Below are positions 23,921 through 32,120 of a stretch of DNA of 64,000 bases, in pieces. The number at the start of each line of letters is the position of its first letter. The first letter of the stretch is position 1. The notes beneath the pieces are model-generated. The model was not told the DNA's origin. It saw only the letters and a list, made by a program, of their open reading frames with translations, and did no database searches. The stretch is from Chryseobacterium joostei (GTDB lineage: Bacteria; Bacteroidota; Bacteroidia; Flavobacteriales; Weeksellaceae): NCBI RefSeq assembly GCF_003815775.1, contig NZ_CP033926.1:4774001-4838000 (forward strand), in the 5' to 3' direction. The translations under genes and the position numbers were made by a program.

Positions 23921-24655
23921 TTAAGCTTTTATGGAATGGATAAAATCTATGGCGCTTTTCTTCCAATCTTTATCCTGTAGTAAGATGTTTACAAAGGCTG
24001 TTCCTATGATGCCGCCATCTGCTTTTTCAGTTACATTTTCAAAATCTTCCTTCGATTTTATTCCAAAGCCTATCATAACAGGATTCTTTAATGGAAGGGC
24101 TGCTAATCTATTCAAATAATTTTCATTTTTCAATACAGCATTTTTATTTCCTGTGGTAGAGGAAGAACTTACTGCATATAGAAATCCGGAGCTTAGGGAA
24201 TCAAGATACTGTATTCTTTCGTCTGAAGTTTCTGGAGTAACCAAGAATGTGAAATTGAGGTTATATTGCTTTAAAATATGCTGATAGTTTTTCTCAAATT
24301 CAATAGGAGGGAGATCGGGAAGTATCAGACCGGAAACTCCACTCTCTGAACATTCTTTACAAAATTTTTCAAATCCAAAACTTAAAACAGGGTTGATGTA
24401 TCCCATCAAAATAATTGGAATTCTAATCTCGTTTTTTATTGTTTTTAACTGAGAAAGAAGCTTTTCAATGGTCATGCCATTTTGTAAGGCCAACTCATGA
24501 GCTTTTTGAATAACAGGTCCGTCTGCTACGGGATCAGAGTAGGGCATTCCAATTTCAATCATGTCTGCTCCTGAATCCTGAATTAGTTTTATAATGTCTG
24601 CCGTATCTTCCAGTTGTGGAATTCCCGCAGTGAAATATATGTTTAGTTTTTTCAT
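23921..24655 (-). CDS. trpA: Tryptophan synthase alpha subunit
   Basis: Cleaves indole-3-glycerol phosphate to indole and glyceraldehyde 3-phosphate. I chose the ATG at 24653-24655, giving M-K-K-L-N-I-Y-F-T-A-G-I-P, because a longer frame adds 12 residues unlike the family. The catalytic Glu lies in M-I-E-I-G-M-P-Y-S-D-P and the Asp in D-P-V-A-D-G-P-V-I-Q. The phosphate-binding G-F-G-I-K lies near residue 207. It is the last gene of the trp operon, paired with trpB 84 bp upstream. Confidence 0.95.
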   Translation of the reverse strand: MKKLNIYFTAGIPQLEDTADIIKLIQDSGADMIEIGMPYSDPVADGPVIQKAHELALQNGMTIEKLLSQLKTIKNEIRIPIILMGYINPVLSFGFEKFCKECSESGVSGLILPDLPPIEFEKNYQHILKQYNLNFTFLVTPETSDERIQYLDSLSSGFLYAVSSSSTTGNKNAVLKNENYLNRLAALPLKNPVMIGFGIKSKEDFENVTEKADGGIIGTAFVNILLQDKDWKKSAIDFIHSIKA

Positions 24656-24739
24656 GTTTTTCTTTATTGTATGAATGTAAAATGTATTCATGATCTAACT
24701 TTATGTGTTGAAGTCATTCTACATTAATATTTCTACATT

Positions 24740-25918
24740 TTACAGATTTTTCAAATAGGTTTCCATGTCCTTATCTCCACGGCCACTCAGGCAAATGACT
24801 ACAACATCATCTTCATTAAATTGCTTTTTATCTAAAACTGCCAGAGCATGAGAACTTTCCAAGGCGGGGATAATCCCTTCCAGTTTTGTTAATTCAAAGG
24901 CACATTTTAAGGCTTCATCATCATTAATACTGAAAAATTCTGCTCTGTTTTCTTTAAATAGATGGGCATGAAAAGGCCCGATACCCGGATAATCAAGTCC
25001 TGCGGAAATGGAATGAGGTTCAATAACCTGTCCGTCTGCAGTCTGCATCACAAGGCTTTTGCTTCCGTGAAGTACTCCCAAGGTTCCCAGAAATGTAGTA
25101 GCTGCTGATTTCCCGGAATCAACTCCCAGACCGCCGGCCTCTGCAGCAATGATTTTTACCTCTTTTTCATTTACAAAATGATAGAATGTTCCTGCAGCAT
25201 TGCTTCCTCCTCCTACGCAGGCAATAACATAGTCCGGGTTTTCTCTTCCGATTTTTTCCTTAAGCTGTTCCTTTATTTCTTTTGAAATGACACTTTGAAA
25301 CCTTGCTACAAGATCAGGGAAAGGATGAGGACCCACCACACTTCCAATTACATAATGAGTGGTCACAGGATTGTTGATCCAGTCTCTTAAGGCTTCGTTT
25401 ACAGCATCTTTCAATGTTTTGGAACCTGAGGTAGCGGCTATAACTTCTGCACCCAGCATTTTCATTCTTGCTACATTCGGGGCCTGTCTCTGGATATCAA
25501 TTTCTCCCATGTATACAATACATTCAAGACCAAGCAGTGCGCAGGCTGTTGCAGTGGCTACACCATGCTGTCCGGCACCGGTTTCAGCAATAATCCTTGT
25601 TTTTCCTAGGCGCTTTGCCAATAGAACCTGTCCTAGGGCATTATTGATTTTGTGTGCTCCGGTATGGTTAAGATCTTCTCTTTTTAAGTAAATCTTGGTG
25701 TTATATTTTTCACTCAGATTTTTCGCAAAATAAAGTGGAGTAGCCCTTCCTACATAGTTTGTAAGCAAGTCCTGATATTCGCTCTGGAAGTCTTCAGATT
25801 CTATGATCTCAAGATAGTTTTTTTGTAATTCTTCTACATTTGGGAAGAGCATTTCAGGGATAAAAGCGCCGCCAAACTCTCCATAATATCCGTTTTCATC
25901 TGGGTTTTTATAATTCAT
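24740..25918 (-). CDS. trpB: Tryptophan synthase beta subunit
   Basis: A 392-residue PLP enzyme that condenses indole with serine to tryptophan. The PLP lysine is in [13 protein letters not shown] (about residues 84-96), and the phosphate-binding loop is G-G-G-S-N-A-A-G near 232. Residues E-T-G-A-G-Q-H-G bind substrate. Full length and in operon position between the GNAT gene and trpA. Confidence 0.97.
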
Positions 25919-25922
25919 TTCT

Positions 25923-26468
25923 TTATTCTTTAGTAATTAAATAAGCGTTATTTTCTGTACTCAGCTGATTGAGTAATTTTTTCTTTTCATCTGATACTTT
26001 GAAGATTAAAATATCATCATCATCAGAATTGATCCATTCAGAACCGGTATTTTCCTTTATCAGTTCGGCCTTGTCATAGAGAATTTCGATCTCACATTTT
26101 TCATAAAACGAGCGAAGCTCGGAATGACAAAAGCCAATGGTTTCCATATTTCTTTTCCTCACGTTCTCCATAAAATGTTGAATTAATTCGGAGCCATAGC
26201 CTTTTTTTCTGTGTGTTGCAACGAATCCTACAACTTCCGCGAAAGTATATTCTTCTCTCTCAATTTTCAGGGTAAAATCAAAATTAACCCGAATAATGGC
26301 CAATATTTCTTCAGTGGTGCCCAATAGAAAATGAAACTCTGAATCTTTGAAAAGGCTACGGAAATAATCCGGTTTCATTGTATTCCATTCCGATACTTCC
26401 CAAAGCTGGAGAATATGTTCTATCTCCTTTTCTGTTAATTCGTTGGCTTGTTTTATTTGGTATTTCAT
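25923..26468 (-). CDS. GNAT family N-acetyltransferase inside the trp operon
   Basis: A 181-residue GNAT protein. Motif A is [16 protein letters not shown] (acetyl-CoA pyrophosphate loop R-K-K-G-Y-G), followed by a helix and then F-Y-E-K-C near residue 125. I start at the ATG 26466-26468 rather than the TTG three codons upstream. It lies 4 bp before trpB and 34 bp after trpF on the same strand, so it is co-transcribed with trp. The substrate is unknown. It is not a standard trp enzyme. Confidence 0.85.
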
Positions 26469-26502
26469 AATTTTCAATCGTAATTAAAGTTAATGAAGAT
26501 GA

Positions 26503-27186
26503 TCAAATACTGGTTTTAAATTGTTTTATCCTTACAATATCCTTATCACCGGGTTCTATTTCAAATTTTGAATTGATGTCTATGGCAAAAGGCTTTTGAT
26601 GTAATGATTCAATATTTGAAATATTTTCTTCTGAAATGCCACCACTCAAAAAATAGGGTAGAGGAATTTCAAATTCATTCAATAGGTTCCAGTCAAACTG
26701 CTGCCCTGTTCCTCCGAATGCCTTGCTGTCTGTATCAAACAGATAATAGCTGATAGGTTGCTGGGAGTCTTTTGAGCGATTATTGAAAGTTTGTTCTATT
26801 TTATTTTTGTTTTCAATGGTATTATTTCCAATTCTTATAACCTTAATGATTTTAACTTCAGTACTTAGTTTTTTTCTTAGATCAAGAATGAAGTTTTCAT
26901 TTTCATCACCATGTAATTGGATAAGATTAAGTTTTCCTTTTTCAACGATTTCAACAATTCTCTCAGTATTTTCATTCACAAATACCCCAACTTTTCCGGA
27001 ATGATCAAACGTTGAAATATCATCCAAACTCAAATGATTCATTACATATCTTGGAGACTTTTCATAGAAGATAAAACCAAGAAAATCTACTTTCATATTG
27101 ATCAATTCCTGAATCTGTTCATACTTTGTCAAGCCACAGACTTTGAGAATAGGAGAGGTATTGTTGGTTGCCGGTTGCTGATTCAT
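26503..27186 (-). CDS. trpF: Phosphoribosylanthranilate isomerase
   Basis: A TIM-barrel enzyme converting phosphoribosylanthranilate to CdRP. The catalytic Cys is in K-V-C-G-L-T-K (about residue 17) and the general acid Asp in L-F-D-T-D-S-K-A-F-G-G-T-G. G-G-I-S-E-E-N-I binds phosphate. The protein has about 12 extra N-terminal residues (M-N-Q-Q-P-A-T-N-N-T) compared with typical TrpF, where C-G-L-T lies near residue 7. No ATG lies closer. Confidence 0.94.
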   Translation of the reverse strand: MNQQPATNNTSPILKVCGLTKYEQIQELINMKVDFLGFIFYEKSPRYVMNHLSLDDISTFDHSGKVGVFVNENTERIVEIVEKGKLNLIQLHGDENENFILDLRKKLSTEVKIIKVIRIGNNTIENKNKIEQTFNNRSKDSQQPISYYLFDTDSKAFGGTGQQFDWNLLNEFEIPLPYFLSGGISEENISNIESLHQKPFAIDINSKFEIEPGDKDIVRIKQFKTSI

Positions 27187-27247: not shown

Positions 27248-28021
27248 TTAAATTGTCAGAGAGAACTCTTCAAATGCCTTTGCAGGATCTGTATTTCTCA
27301 TAAAATATTCTCCCATGAGGAATCCATCAAACCCTTTTTCTTTTAAATATTTAAAATCTTCAAGAGTATAAATACCGCTTTCCGCAATAGATAAGGTATC
27401 TTTTGGAAGCTGGTCTTTGAGCTGAACAGAATGCTGTAAATCAACCTTGAAGTCTTTTAAGTTCCTGTTATTAATTCCTACTAAATCAATTTTTGAGTTA
27501 AAATGCTTAAGCTCTTCTTCGGTATGAATTTCAAGTAAAACTTCCAGATCCAATTCATGAGCCAGCGCTGTAAATTCCTGAACCTGATTTGGAGAAAGGC
27601 ACGATGCGATCAGTAAAATGACATCTGCACCCATACTTTTTGCCTCATAAAATTGATATTCATCAATCATAAAATCTTTTCGCAGAACCGGAATATTAAG
27701 GTGATTTCTTACGCCTAAAATATCATCAAAGCTTCCTCCAAAAAAATCCTTATCCGTTAAGATAGAAATTCCACTTGCCCCAAATTGTTCATAGGCAGAG
27801 GTAACATCCAAAGGAGCAACATTATTATTGATGATTCCCTTTGATGGAGATTGTCTTTTAAATTCCGCAATGATGCCATTTCTATTCTTGATGGATTCTT
27901 TCAGGGAATGACTCTTTCTCCCGAAAAATTCTGAGTTTTTCAATTCATCAATGGAAACTTTGGATTTTGAAATCGTTATTTCTTCTTTTTTTCTTTCAAT
28001 AATTTTATCTAGTATGGTCAT
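27248..28021 (-). CDS. trpC: Indole-3-glycerol phosphate synthase
   Basis: A 257-residue TIM-barrel enzyme that closes the indole ring. Conserved marks are I-A-E-F-K-R-Q-S-P-S-K-G (catalytic Lys), V-L-R-K-D-F-M-I-D, L-L-E-I-H-T-E-E-E, G-I-N-N-R-N-L-K and A-E-S-G-I. Separate from trpF, unlike the fused E. coli protein. In operon order between trpD and trpF. Confidence 0.96.
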   Translation of the reverse strand: MTILDKIIERKKEEITISKSKVSIDELKNSEFFGRKSHSLKESIKNRNGIIAEFKRQSPSKGIINNNVAPLDVTSAYEQFGASGISILTDKDFFGGSFDDILGVRNHLNIPVLRKDFMIDEYQFYEAKSMGADVILLIASCLSPNQVQEFTALAHELDLEVLLEIHTEEELKHFNSKIDLVGINNRNLKDFKVDLQHSVQLKDQLPKDTLSIAESGIYTLEDFKYLKEKGFDGFLMGEYFMRNTDPAKAFEEFSLTI

Positions 28022-28060: not shown

Positions 28061-29047
28061 TTATTTAATAAGGAGCTCAAAAGTTCTTAATGCTTTTCCA
28101 TTTTTCAGACTTTCTTTGGCTAAAAGAAGACAATCATCATAGGAACCGAATTTGCGGGTATGGTGAAGTGCTACAGCTGCATTGGCCAAAACCACGGCAT
28201 TTTGTTGTTCAGTTCCTTTTCCTTCCAGAATATTCATGAAGATTTTTGCAGTCTCCTGAATGGTATCTCCAGCCTTAATATCTTCAAGGGTTACAGGATT
28301 GAACCCAAGGTCTTCAGCAGAGTGAATTTCTTCTCCATTCTTAGTAATAATTTTACTGTCATGGGTTAAACTGATCTCATCATAACCATCCAGTCCATGT
28401 ACAAGGATAAATTCCTGTTCTTCTTTTTGAAGAAGATATTGATAGATCCTTGCAATTTCCAGGTTGTATACACCAATCATTGAATATTGAGGTTTTGCAG
28501 GATTTACCAATGGTCCCAGAAGATTAAAAAATGTTCTTAGTCCCAATGACTTTCTCAATAACCCAACCGATTGAAGAGCGGGGTGGAAGTAAGGAGCATG
28601 CAGGAAGCAGATATTAGCTCTCTCAAGATCTTCATTTAATTGTTCTGATGTGCTTTTAAACTGATAGCCAATTTCTTCCAGTACATTGGAAGACCCTGTG
28701 GTAGTTGAAGCTCCATAATTTCCATGTTTTGTTACTTTCTGCCCGGCTCCGGCCACCACAAAGCTGGCCAACGTTGATATATTGATTGTGTTTTTTCCGT
28801 CACCTCCTGTTCCTACAATATCAATGGCATCGCTTGCATCAATATTTACTGGGACAGCCATCTGCAATAAGGCTTCTCTAAAACCTTCCAATTCTTTCAA
28901 TGTAATATTTCGCATCAGAAAAACACTGATGAATGAAGTTACTTCCGCAGCATTGAATTTATTCTGAGCAATTTCAATCATCATAGCCTTTGCTTCGGAT
29001 TTCGACAAAGTGTTATGATTAAACAGGTATTGCAGTATTTCTTTCAT
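28061..29047 (-). CDS. trpD: Anthranilate phosphoribosyltransferase
   Basis: Transfers phosphoribose to anthranilate. The PRPP loop G-T-G-G-D-G-K-N-T-I-N-I-S-T and K-H-G-N-Y-G-A-S-T-T-T-G-S are intact. I chose the ATG at 29045-29047 (M-K-E-I-L-Q-Y-L-F-N), which matches the usual N-terminal helix and length (about 328 residues). An upstream ATG at 29092 would add 15 residues of low-complexity sequence and cannot be excluded. Third gene of the operon. Confidence 0.95.
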   Translation of the reverse strand: MKEILQYLFNHNTLSKSEAKAMMIEIAQNKFNAAEVTSFISVFLMRNITLKELEGFREALLQMAVPVNIDASDAIDIVGTGGDGKNTINISTLASFVVAGAGQKVTKHGNYGASTTTGSSNVLEEIGYQFKSTSEQLNEDLERANICFLHAPYFHPALQSVGLLRKSLGLRTFFNLLGPLVNPAKPQYSMIGVYNLEIARIYQYLLQKEEQEFILVHGLDGYDEISLTHDSKIITKNGEEIHSAEDLGFNPVTLEDIKAGDTIQETAKIFMNILEGKGTEQQNAVVLANAAVALHHTRKFGSYDDCLLLAKESLKNGKALRTFELLIK

Positions 29048-29149
29048 TTGAGGAGTTTTTATGGTTGAGGGATTTTGTATTGTTGTTTTCATATTAAATA
29101 CACTTTGTTAAATTTCTAGACAAGCTGAAATAAAAGCTTCTGATCTATT

Positions 29150-29758
29150 CTAATGATTTAAAAAGTTTCGGATAATTACTTCTCCCTCTGGAGTCAAGAT
29201 ACTCTCAGGATGAAACTGTACGCCGTGCACATCGTAAGTTTTATGTTGTAAAGCCATGATCATTCCGTCTTTATCAACTGCGGTAATTTCCAGTTCTTCT
29301 GGGAAGTTATCTGGGTTCACTGCCCAGCTGTGATACCTTCCAACTTCTAATCCTGATGCCAGATCTTTGAAAAGCTTAGTATCTTCTTTTACCAGTTCAG
29401 TAGTGGTTGCTACTCCGTGAAAAATTTCTGAAAGGTTGATAAGACTTCCGCCAAATGCTTCTGCAATGGCCTGCTGACCTAAGCATACCCCCAAAATACT
29501 CTTGGTAGGAGCATATTCTTTAATAAGATCCAGTAAAATTCCAGCTTCTTCCGGAATTCCCGGGCCGGGAGAAAGAATAATCTTGTCATATTTCCCGATT
29601 TCTTCCAATGTAATTTGATCATTTCTTACTACATCTACTTTTTGATTCAAAATTCTTTCAATGATCTGAACCAAATTATAGGTGAAGCTGTCATAATTAT
29701 CAAAAACAAGAACTTTTGATGGCTGGCTTTCGGTTACTGGTGTTATATTATTGTTCAT
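29150..29758 (-). CDS. trpG: Anthranilate synthase component II (glutamine amidotransferase)
   Basis: A 202-residue class I glutamine amidotransferase supplying ammonia to TrpE. The triad Cys is in G-V-C-L-G-Q-Q-A-I and His-Glu in V-Q-F-H-P-E-S. The N terminus has about 13 extra residues before the usual V-L-V-F-D-N-Y-D-S-F-T-Y-N-L. A separate role in folate synthesis (PabA) is possible, but the operon makes TrpG the natural call. It lies 43 bp after trpE. Confidence 0.95.
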   Translation of the reverse strand: MNNNITPVTESQPSKVLVFDNYDSFTYNLVQIIERILNQKVDVVRNDQITLEEIGKYDKIILSPGPGIPEEAGILLDLIKEYAPTKSILGVCLGQQAIAEAFGGSLINLSEIFHGVATTTELVKEDTKLFKDLASGLEVGRYHSWAVNPDNFPEELEITAVDKDGMIMALQHKTYDVHGVQFHPESILTPEGEVIIRNFLNH

Positions 29759-29801: not shown

Positions 29802-31226
29802 TTAATCCTGAACGATCTTTTCTGCTTTTTCTACTGCCTTTTTCAGGGCATTCAGTTTATTGTTGACCTCCTGCAATTCGTTTTCAGGGACTGATTTTGC
29901 AACGAGACCGGCTCCTGCCTGATAATAAAGTGTATTGTTTTTACTTAAAAAGGTTCTGATCATAATGGCCTGATTACAGCTTCCATTTAAACCAACAATC
30001 CCGATACATCCTCCATAGTAGCCGCGTGAGTCTTTTTCATATTGGTTGATCAGTTGAAGCGCTTTATGCTTAGGTGCCCCACTTAACGTTCCCTGAGGAA
30101 AGGTTGCTGAAATCATTTCCAGAGGATTAATTTGCTCCGGTAGATCTGCCGTTACTTCACTTACCATATGAATAACATGAGAGAAAAGCTGAATTTCTTT
30201 AAGCTTGGTAACGGTTACATTTTTCCCCAGCTTTCCAAGATCATTACGGGCTAGGTCTACCAGCATGGTATGTTCTGCATTTTCCTTTGGATCTTTTTTT
30301 AATTCTTCAATAGCCTGAAGATCAATATCCAAATTTCCCGTTCTTTTGGAAGTTCCTGCAATAGGATGAATAATGGCTTTATTGTCTTTAATAATTAACT
30401 GGCTTTCAGGACTTGACCCGAATAATTTGTAGTTTCCGTAATCAAAATAGAATAGGTAAGGTGAGGGATTGATATTTCTTAAGGCTCTGTAAACATTGAA
30501 TTCGTCTCCTTTGAATTTCTGTTCAAATCTTCTGCTTAGTACAAGTTGAAATACATCACCTCTCATACAATGTTTCTGGGCCGTTTTTACCAATTCAAGA
30601 TAGTCCTCATTCGTAATGTTGGAAGTTTCCTGACCATTCTTTTCAAAAGGATAAACCGGAGTATTCTGATTTTTGATGAGGTTTTCCAAAAGGTGTAGTT
30701 CAGATTTTACACCGTTCATTTGGTTTTCAATAATATACATCTCATCATTGAAGTGGTTGATGGCGATTACATATTGATATAATCTGTATCTCAGAATAGG
30801 AATTTCCACTTCCGGGCTTTGTGGCTTCAAGTTGATGCTTTCAAAAAACTGTACCGCTTCAAAGCTTGTATATCCAAAAAGACTTTGAGCTGTCTGTTCA
30901 ATAGAATCATCGGTCTTTTCGCAATCAAAAATAGTACGGAAGCTTTCAAATATATCGATGATACTACGCTCATTGATAGGTTGCTTTACCGGAGCAGAAT
31001 CAGGAAGCTTAATTTCAAATTCATGTAAGTTTTTTACTTCGATTCCTGCAACAGCGTTGATGGCAATAAAGGAAAAATTGTTGTCAATACTTTTAGAATC
31101 TGAACTTTCCAAAAGAATCGTATCCCTGAATTTATCCCTGATTTTAAGGTAAATATTCATGGGAGTATGAAGATCTCCAAGAGTTTTTTTCGAAACGGTT
31201 TTTATTTTGATTTTTTGAGTAAACAT
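29802..31226 (-). CDS. trpE: Anthranilate synthase component I
   Basis: A 474-residue chorismate-utilising enzyme, first of the tryptophan pathway. The start at 31224-31226 (M-F-T-Q-K-I-K-I-K-T) is chosen because the longer frame would run back into the attenuator T tract. The C-terminal catalytic core has G-S-S-P-E-S, P-I-A-G-T-S-K-R-T-G and T-F-P-Q-G-T-L-S-G-A-P-K-H-K-A. The N-terminal L-L-E-S-S-D element is the usual tryptophan feedback site. Expression is controlled by the leader peptide and hairpin just upstream. Confidence 0.95.
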   Translation of the reverse strand: MFTQKIKIKTVSKKTLGDLHTPMNIYLKIRDKFRDTILLESSDSKSIDNNFSFIAINAVAGIEVKNLHEFEIKLPDSAPVKQPINERSIIDIFESFRTIFDCEKTDDSIEQTAQSLFGYTSFEAVQFFESINLKPQSPEVEIPILRYRLYQYVIAINHFNDEMYIIENQMNGVKSELHLLENLIKNQNTPVYPFEKNGQETSNITNEDYLELVKTAQKHCMRGDVFQLVLSRRFEQKFKGDEFNVYRALRNINPSPYLFYFDYGNYKLFGSSPESQLIIKDNKAIIHPIAGTSKRTGNLDIDLQAIEELKKDPKENAEHTMLVDLARNDLGKLGKNVTVTKLKEIQLFSHVIHMVSEVTADLPEQINPLEMISATFPQGTLSGAPKHKALQLINQYEKDSRGYYGGCIGIVGLNGSCNQAIMIRTFLSKNNTLYYQAGAGLVAKSVPENELQEVNNKLNALKKAVEKAEKIVQD

Positions 31227-31260: not shown

Positions 31261-31295
31261 AAAAAAAAGGCTTTAACGGAATCCGTCAAAGCCTT
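31261..31295 (-). terminator. trp attenuator hairpin
   Basis: On the minus strand AAGGCTTTGACGGA pairs with TCCGTTAAAGCCTT (stem 31267-31295) with one G-U pair and a single-base turn, followed by a T run. It lies between the leader peptide and trpE. The leader word TTCGTC (31355-31360) can pair with GACGGA (31282-31287) of its 5' arm, a candidate antiterminator. Confidence 0.85.
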
Positions 31296-31326
31296 GTATA
31301 TTGTTTTGTTTGTATCTGCTGTTGGG

Positions 31327-31404
31327 TTAACAACATGACAATAACTTCAGACCCGACGAAGAGTTTGAAAGCCACCACCAAATATTGTTGCTATTATTAA
31401 ACAT
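31327..31404 (-). CDS. trpL: trp leader peptide with three tandem Trp codons
   Basis: A 25-codon ORF reads M-F-N-N-S-N-N-I-W-W-W-L-S-N and ends L-L-S-C-C then TAA. The three TGG codons occupy 31372-31380. This is the classic design for ribosome-mediated attenuation: ribosomes stalled at Trp codons when charged tRNA-Trp is scarce would alter folding and let transcription pass the hairpin at 31267-31295. The ATG lies 4 nt after the -7 element, so the mRNA is predicted to be leaderless and translation would begin on the very 5' end. Confidence 0.88.
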   Translation of the reverse strand: MFNNSNNIWWWLSNSSSGLKLLSCC

Positions 31405-31408
31405 GGGA

Positions 31409-31416
31409 CAAATTTA
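31409..31416 (-). promoter_or_regulatory. -7 promoter element of the trp operon
   Basis: On the minus strand TAAATTTG is an exact TAnnTTTG match, with a TTG -33 box 22 bp upstream (another lies 15 bp upstream). The predicted start coincides with the trpL ATG. Confidence 0.75.
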
Positions 31417-31478
31417 GAAATTTTTTTAATACAAAAAACAAAAAATTCAAAAAAAATAAAAACTTATTTTGAAATATA

Positions 31479-32120
31479 CTACTTCAACTGCTTGAGTTCT
31501 TTCCTGAGTTCTTCAATTTTTAATCTAGAACTTTCATCATCATAAGAATCTGTATAATCTTCTAAGGCTGAGATGTATTCCATAATAAACTCCTTGTTGG
31601 TTCTGTCTGCTTCATACTTGATTCTTGCAGAATTGACAGGAGCTAGTTTTTCATTTTCTAATAAGATTTTTCCTTCCTTGGATTGGTCATAAAGGATAAC
31701 AATATTTTTTTCATATCCGGGAATGTATTTTACGGGAAGATCCTTTTGACTAGGAATTCTAATTGAGTTTCTGATAGGGTAGATTGCTGCAGTAGTCGTT
31801 GAAAAAAAAGTAGTCGTGTATTTTCCGTTCTGTTTCTTTACAATGGCTTCATAATCATGAATGTAGCTTTCATTTAATGTGGAGTTGGTTTCAACATCGG
31901 AAGTAATAATGGCTGTGCTTTCCACACCATATGTATTAAGAAACCAGGCGTTTAAAAACTGACCACAAATTCCATTCAAAATTGCCAAAGGAATAATAGG
32001 AATCAGAAATAGTGCTTTTTTTGTTGCATAAAAGAGCAATCCAAAGAATAAAAAGAGCAGTATCACAGTATAAAAACCATGATGACTGGTGAAAAACAGA
32101 ATTTTAGAAATTAAAACCAT
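31479..32120 (-). CDS. Hypothetical membrane protein, 213 residues
   Basis: Two N-terminal membrane helices (about residues 17-33 and 36-58) are followed by a soluble domain of about 150 residues with a DUF3592-like look (V-E-S-T-A-I-I-T-S-D, then L-P-V-K-Y-I-P-G-Y) and a charged C-terminal helix rich in Glu, Asp and Lys. I do not recognise the family. It is convergent with nothing nearby and is separated from the trp promoter by about 60 bp, reading in the same direction towards it. Confidence 0.65.
   Translation of the reverse strand: MVLISKILFFTSHHGFYTVILLFLFFGLLFYATKKALFLIPIIPLAILNGICGQFLNAWFLNTYGVESTAIITSDVETNSTLNESYIHDYEAIVKKQNGKYTTTFFSTTTAAIYPIRNSIRIPSQKDLPVKYIPGYEKNIVILYDQSKEGKILLENEKLAPVNSARIKYEADRTNKEFIMEYISALEDYTDSYDDESSRLKIEELRKELKQLK

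Follow-up and report, generated by a model that had tools for sequence, protein, structure and literature searches.

The window analysed here, a stretch of 64,000 nucleotides from the 4.89 Mb assembly of Chryseobacterium joostei (a genus placed in the Weeksellaceae by NCBI), carries a tryptophan operon on its minus strand, in which a leader is followed by trpE, trpG, trpD, trpC, trpF, a gene for a GNAT-type acetyltransferase, trpB and trpA. TrpE, anthranilate synthase component I (29802..31226, with its ATG at 31226), was recognised by Pfam PF00425 and PF04715 above cut-off, its best NCBIfam match (TIGR00564) scoring under the curated cut-off. TrpG (29150..29758; TIGR00566), trpD (28061..29092; TIGR01245), trpC (27248..28021; NF001377), trpB (24740..25918; TIGR00263) and trpA (23921..24691; TIGR00262) all exceeded their cut-offs. 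For trpF (26503..27186) this was true of Pfam PF00697, the best NCBIfam match, NF002298, being below its own cut-off, and the acetyltransferase ORF between trpF and trpB (25923..26477) matched Pfam PF00583 and PF13527 above cut-off and had no NCBIfam match.

The leader, also on the minus strand, begins with a -7 element, TAAATTTG (31409..31416), of the form TAnnTTTG that is typical of the housekeeping sigma factor of Bacteroidota. Four nucleotides, TCCC, separate it from an ATG at 31404, the A of which is the predicted transcription start. This ATG opens trpL (31327..31404), an ORF for a 25-codon leader peptide, MFNNSNNIWWWLSNSSSGLKLLSCC, with three Trp codons in a row (codons 9-11; 31372..31380). 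A hairpin termed 1:2 (31336..31380), recovered by folding and by alignment, holds the Trp codons at its base: these codons and the next bases pair with the stretch up to UUAUUGUCA, leaving UUCGUC in the apical loop. Region 2, UUCGUCGGGUCU (31349..31360), is the antiterminator strand, and region 3, AGGCUUUGACGGA (31282..31294), may pair with either region 2 or region 4. An intrinsic terminator (31261..31295), made of a 13-bp hairpin at 31267-31295 and eight T, completes the leader. Box, short ORF, three TGG codons, hairpin with T tract and trpE thus lie where a previous sequence-only reading of this DNA had placed them.

Conservation of the leader before trpE

Loci of relatives were located through trpE, so that the leader itself did not serve as bait. 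In the genus, the leader was present in all 36 genomes (C. joostei included), and a 22-nt core, TTCAAACTCTTCGTCGGGTCTG, was exact in 31 of these loci and had one mismatch in the other five. The same core occurs once in the C. joostei genome at up to three mismatches; TGGTGGTGG by itself is common, with 25 occurrences on both strands of 864 kb of that genome. Judged from these comparisons, the arrangement of box, ORF and hairpin before trpE exceeds chance. Searching public genomes for a 33-nt leader core gave 96 stretches, of which the 80 among the matches listed were all from Chryseobacterium; because these 80 were found by the core itself, their invariance is biased, and it is the 36 loci found by trpE that are unbiased. 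The three TGG codons are invariant in all 76 distinct Chryseobacterium ORFs, in which N-terminal residues vary, the invariance of the core in that codon table being biased in turn since 79 of the 122 loci behind it were found by the core.

The sequence itself is not kept far beyond the genus, as the 33-nt core was recovered at up to three mismatches in 71 of 197 family genomes, representing two of 33 genera. TrpE was detected at E <= 1e-100 in 165 of the 197 genomes (21 genera), and upstream stretches were taken for 80 of these 165, covering 19 of the 21 genera (g27 and g36, in our genus codes, were left out). A short ORF with a Trp run preceded trpE in 80/80 of these further family loci (WWW in 74, WW in five and WCW in one) and likewise in eight of eight genomes from other families of the same order. 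An intrinsic terminator lay between ORF and trpE in each of 113 parsed loci (of 116, the three without a box being excluded). The sequence-only reading had named a TGG run lost in relatives as a point against itself; the run is conserved before trpE. In two loci from another family of the order (L040 and L042) we observed two serial Trp-run leaders before a single trpE, each with a hairpin-like stretch and a T run recognised by eye.

Alternative helices in the leader RNA

The leader RNA folds better than its shuffled versions (z -3.58; two of 200 shuffles were as good). The antiterminator consists of UUCGUCGGGUCU paired with AGGCUUUGACGGA over 12 bp with one bulge, at -12.9 kcal/mol. A pairing of UUCGUC with GACGGA had been proposed from the sequence, and it was borne out as such, its length being 12 bp instead of 6 bp.

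For covariation we used an alignment of 44 of the 108 distinct sequences, hand-picked as alignable. Within it, standard pairs filled 90.8% of the cells of stem 1:2 and terminator, with eight pairs changed on both sides, divided equally, four each, between the upper stem 1:2 and the terminator; for the antiterminator the corresponding values were 95.1% and five pairs, and controls in which the partners were slid by one to three columns gave 26-53% paired cells. Shuffles matched the number of doubly changed pairs in 23/500 cases, both for stem 1:2 plus terminator and for the antiterminator, and matched the further pair types in 347/500 and 29/500, respectively. The Trp-codon half of stem 1:2 showed zero pairs changed on both sides and relies on G-U pairs. 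In one set of three alignment columns, taken from the leader, the 5' arm and the 3' arm of the terminator, the bases are C/G/C in 32 and U/A/U in six of the 44 sequences, the remaining cases being four gapped, one G/G/C and one U/C/C; such a joint change is what pairing of region 3 with region 2 as well as with region 4 would lead one to expect. All six U/A/U sequences belong to genus g28 and thus count as one event; g30 and one g21 sequence share a further doubly changed pair of neighbours. Aligning the regions upstream of trpE, as the sequence-only reading had suggested, yielded tandem Trp codons that are kept and three helices that covary.

Leaders also pair better with the terminator 5' arm of their own genus than with that of foreign genera: over 14 genera the means were -13.8 vs -10.5 (sd 0.59; 0/20000 permutations), g40, g47 and g29 being excluded. 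With these three included and the target lengthened by the loop and part of the 3' arm, the 17 genera gave -14.6 vs -11.6 (sd 0.57; 0/20000 permutations), with z ranging from -4.0 to -5.6 when representatives were drawn 60 times. Single genera with a weak contrast were g39, g45 and g51, for which foreign arms were as good in 41%, 29% and 28%, respectively. Pairing with the 5' arm of the terminator taken by itself is poor for the leaders of g40, g47 and g29 (-4.7 to -9.0 kcal/mol among the loci displayed); these leaders draw on the terminator loop and 3' arm more than on the 5' arm. Covariation and the preference for the own terminator together support a mutually exclusive antiterminator, as far as comparison of sequences can.

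Promoter spacing

In Flavobacterium johnsoniae, the -7 element TAnnTTTG occupies positions -12 to -5; in probable promoters of that species a gap of 4 or 5 nt separates the element from the transcription start (PMC6847099, excerpt). The promoter element of trpL is placed as would be expected for transcription from the start codon. The distance of 4 nt noted in the sequence-only reading was seen here and recurred in 35 of 36 same-genus genomes, the remaining one having 5 nt. Among the 80 further family loci, in which the start codon was chosen relative to the box and L174, L213 and L221 have no value, the distance was 4-6 nt in 65, from 15 of 19 genera; one of these 65, L178 (g28), starts an extended ORF. 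Both sets together give this spacing in 101 of 116 genomes. In 40 of the 45 loci with 5 nt an A stands directly 5' of the start codon, which fits transcription starting 4 nt past the box in both classes, and in three loci (L211, L219 and L239) GTG replaces ATG at the same spot. The conserved spacing across the family backs the leaderless start that had been proposed.

The other 15 of the 80 loci lie off this spacing or have no exact box. They comprise two loci of g26 (one at 22 nt, one with TTG at 8 nt as the only near start), two of g29 at 10 nt, two of the three g42 loci at 44 nt, five of g28 and one of g45 at 52-54 nt, and one each of g49, g38 and g28 with no usable exact box. A short, apparently leaderless ORF (MKRQ... 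or MKRVSNIS) is inserted between the box and the Trp-run ORF in L170, L171, L177 and L178 (g28) and L202 (g45); in L178 this extra ORF is fused in frame with the Trp-run ORF. In the neighbouring family f3, presumably Flavobacteriaceae, the 15 loci found by RF01692 had 16-19 nt in 11 and 5 nt in two, the other two (L164 and L166) having no usable value.

Within C. joostei, 430 genes with intergenic upstream regions (864 kb) had the box at 4-6 nt 11 times, at 7-13 nt four times and at 14-25 nt 74 times, the background frequency in the same 864 kb being 0.53 per position at 40-149 nt. This bimodal spacing suggests that leaderless and short-leader genes form distinct classes in C. joostei, trpL falling into the leaderless one. 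At the trp promoter a -33 TTG is located 15, 22 or 31 nt from the box, not at 19 nt, which is the commonest distance among promoters of relatives (33/101). By comparison, then, the leaderless reading is well supported, with the transcription start itself deduced from the position of the box; the literature matches listed contained no transcription start-site map of Chryseobacterium. The leaderless share of mRNAs is 5.5% in F. psychrophilum (PMC9723704, excerpt), and in Bacteroides thetaiotaomicron about 3.7% of mapped mRNAs are reported to have a leader shorter than 10 nt.

The 3' end of 16S rRNA

All seven 16S rRNA copies of C. joostei end in ACATCTCATT in place of the classical ACACCTCCTT, so that the anti-Shine-Dalgarno region reads UCUCAUU where the classical one is CCUCCUU. 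The same altered end was found in all 10 same-genus genomes, of 12 searched, whose 3' end could be read, and CCTCC was absent in all 41 readable family genomes, which came from 60 searched and represent 24 of 33 genera; in other families, three genomes had the classical end and one had ACAACTCCTT. Organisms without the classical anti-Shine-Dalgarno have been described as concentrated in Chryseobacterium, Elizabethkingia and Riemerella, among others (PMC6107228, excerpt). The altered anti-Shine-Dalgarno and the leaderless trpL thus coincide at the level of the family, and we offer a link between the two as a hypothesis, because the coincidence may reflect one branch of the tree and is broken by g26, g29 and g49, which have the altered anti-Shine-Dalgarno although their trpL is not leaderless.

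Proposed mechanism and alternative explanations

Comparison establishes the parts of the leader, their conservation, the alternative helices with their covariation and the spacing from promoter to start, and on these grounds we regard the leader as a ribosome-controlled trp attenuator whose mRNA would start at the trpL start codon or no more than about one nucleotide from it (probability of about 0.87). The attenuation by a Trp leader peptide that was originally suggested is backed by the same comparison. We infer the transcription start, the ribosome stall and the response to tryptophan as follows. RNA polymerase would begin at the A of the trpL ATG, and a ribosome would load on the 5'-terminal AUG without a 5' untranslated region and without Shine-Dalgarno pairing, since the 16S rRNA of Weeksellaceae does not offer it. 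When charged tRNA-Trp is scarce, the ribosome should stall at codons 9-11 and open stem 1:2, whose 5' strand would be made of these Trp codons and the eleven bases after them; the freed region 2 (UUCGUCGGGUCU) could then form its 12 bp with region 3, the terminator 5' arm, allowing read-through into trpE. With ample tryptophan the ribosome would pass, stem 1:2 would re-form, region 3 would pair with region 4 and transcription would stop at the T run.

A real attenuator might also be carried on an mRNA with a normal 5' leader, derived from an upstream start or from read-through, the box at 4 nt then being a chance or minor element. Mapped transcripts of Flavobacteriia mostly have leaders (PMC6847099 and PMC9723704, excerpts), the His leader peptide of C. 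joostei itself, MKPIFLALHHYYHHLC, starts 17 nt from its box, the -33 element of the trp promoter is off position, and in eight of the 80 family loci over 22 nt separate the box from the Trp ORF. We consider this quite unlikely, given the spacing of 4-6 nt in 36/36 and 65/80 loci; moreover, the 500 nt examined (about 31301-31800) held no second TAnnTTTG on the minus strand, which also speaks against the start far upstream that the sequence-only reading had named as a result contrary to its proposal. Highly improbable, in our view, is that the terminator is ruled by a protein, a tRNA (T-box) or a tryptophan-binding RNA, the Trp-rich ORF being incidental. What would fit such control is that, among Chryseobacterium loci, the 22-nt core hardly varies even at third codon positions, a pattern also shown by RNAs that bind a ligand. 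However, the 33-nt core is confined to two of 33 genera and the pairing is kept more widely, the Trp run persists (80/80 family and 8/8 other-family loci) where other residues of the peptide change, and the whole window lacked a match to any Rfam family at its gathering score. When E values up to 10 were admitted, the leader had 14 Rfam matches, all under the gathering score, of which rli40 was the best (E 0.007; 19.7 vs 100 bits) and none was a T-box or a tryptophan riboswitch. A tryptophan riboswitch or T-box was therefore rejected, because neither had an Rfam match and the loci share the Trp run, not a fixed sequence.

A further role could be added to the attenuator if the terminated leaderless RNA, or its peptide, also acted in trans like rnTrpL and peTrpL of Sinorhizobium meliloti, whose trpL RNA begins with ATG and has such roles (PMC7298713, excerpt). 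The Chryseobacterium ORF does extend past region 2 and its end is fairly conserved; this conservation is partly explained by pairing to the Trp codons in stem 1:2, and we think a function in trans unlikely.

Comparison with known attenuators

In the trp operon of Escherichia coli, tandem Trp codons lie in stem 1:2, followed by antiterminator 2:3 and terminator 3:4 before trpE, and a ribosome at the leader stop codon covers region 2. The leader of Chryseobacterium resembles it in having the Trp codons in 1:2, an antiterminator 2:3 and a terminator 3:4. It differs in being predicted to be leaderless, in the lack of Shine-Dalgarno pairing, in its promoter box and in that its ORF reads through region 2; the trpL stop codon of C. 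joostei is located 19 nt beyond region 2, so that a ribosome at this stop would hardly cover region 2.

For Bacteroidota, Rfam has family RF01692 with the description 'Bacteroidete tryptophan peptide leader RNA'. The Bacteroid-trp motif was listed in Weinberg 2010 (PMC2864571, excerpt) and lies before the trp operon of F. psychrophilum (PMC6414381, excerpt), a species in which clues for leader-peptide attenuation before amino-acid operons were reported (PMC9723704, excerpt). Of 148 genomes from the order, RF01692 matched 23, including two from Weeksellaceae, both from g45 and at 49.8 bits vs a gathering score of 49; the window gave no hit to it, whether at the gathering score or with E values of up to 10 allowed, and 13 same-genus genomes among those listed were unmatched under stricter filters. 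The Rfam leader model is thereby seen not to match Chryseobacterium. The C. joostei leader shares with RF01692 its place directly before trpE, the Trp run in a short ORF and a hairpin corresponding to 1:2, whereas in the RF01692 model the AUG is preceded by about 20 positions and there is one hairpin but no antiterminator.

Leaderless leader peptides are known from other phyla. In S. meliloti, too, the 5' end of the trp attenuator RNA is the leader ORF's ATG, as is predicted here, but this species is an Alphaproteobacterium and its trpL has the extra roles in trans mentioned above (PMC7298713, excerpt). LeuL of Streptomyces lividans is a leaderless attenuator peptide (PMC8079986, excerpt), as are the polycysteine ORFs of mycobacteria (Canestrari 2020, cited in an excerpt of PMC13236596); these actinobacterial peptides also serve amino acid genes, but other amino acids and in another phylum. 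Mycobacteria commonly have leaderless mRNAs (PMC4633059, excerpt), and such mRNAs are few in the Bacteroidota that have been mapped. Among the matches listed in our searches of open-licence literature (main texts), we saw no paper that reports a leaderless attenuator peptide for Bacteroidota. The sequence-only reading had called a leaderless leader peptide unusual for Bacteroidota, which is overstated in part: trp leader attenuators, including the leader peptide described by RF01692, are already known from the phylum, and it is the leaderless start over much of a family that is newer. Bacteroidota gain a trp attenuator whose start codon is predicted to be the 5' end of the mRNA and which is kept through most of the examined genera of the family. 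How ribosomes without the classical anti-Shine-Dalgarno choose a start codon is a question on which a leaderless attenuator could report, and sensitively so, because the switch should fail unless ribosome loading is early and reliable.

Similar layouts before pyrB, ilvE and his genes

UTP-sensing attenuation of the pyrBI type combines a U-rich tract with a stop codon next to the terminator. In the family, a predicted leaderless ORF starting 5-6 nt from the box preceded pyrB (identified by NCBIfam NF002032 above cut-off) in 27 of 28 usable loci (L303-L332), two of the 30 loci being excluded at contig ends. Frame analysis covered 22 parsed loci out of these 28: in 21 of them the leaderless frame stays open until it is at most 12 nt short of the terminator or past it, vs one and eight for the other two frames. 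The peptide is not conserved, a U-rich tract just 5' of the terminator recurs, and the stop of the ORF abuts the terminator in most parsed loci. By analogy, the pyrB leader, which in C. joostei lies at L250:9230-9378 (about 109.2-109.4 kb), is a candidate for a UTP-sensing, pyrBI-like attenuator.

It seems somewhat more probable to us than the contrary that leaderless leader peptides form a standing attenuator class in Weeksellaceae (before trpE in most genera, before pyrB, and before ilvE in C. joostei), the 5'-terminal AUG being part of the mechanism, since a ribosome could load as the first bases emerge and keep step with RNA polymerase without Shine-Dalgarno pairing. The leaderless ilvE leader was seen in one of 13 ilvE loci, that of C. 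joostei itself, and not in the 12 others (ilvE identified by TIGR01122 above cut-off). Upstream of ilvE in C. joostei (L269:11200-11615, about 4.6212-4.6216 Mb) there are two tandem Ile/Val-rich leader peptides, the first predicted to be leaderless (MNFTNQKNIIVISIAAVVIYNSQEAAF) and the second MYQLFAVIIIVIIIPLRL, each with a terminator-like hairpin. Upstream of hisG (L247, about 532 kb) the His leader peptide already mentioned is followed by a terminator-like hairpin and is preceded by a short leader.
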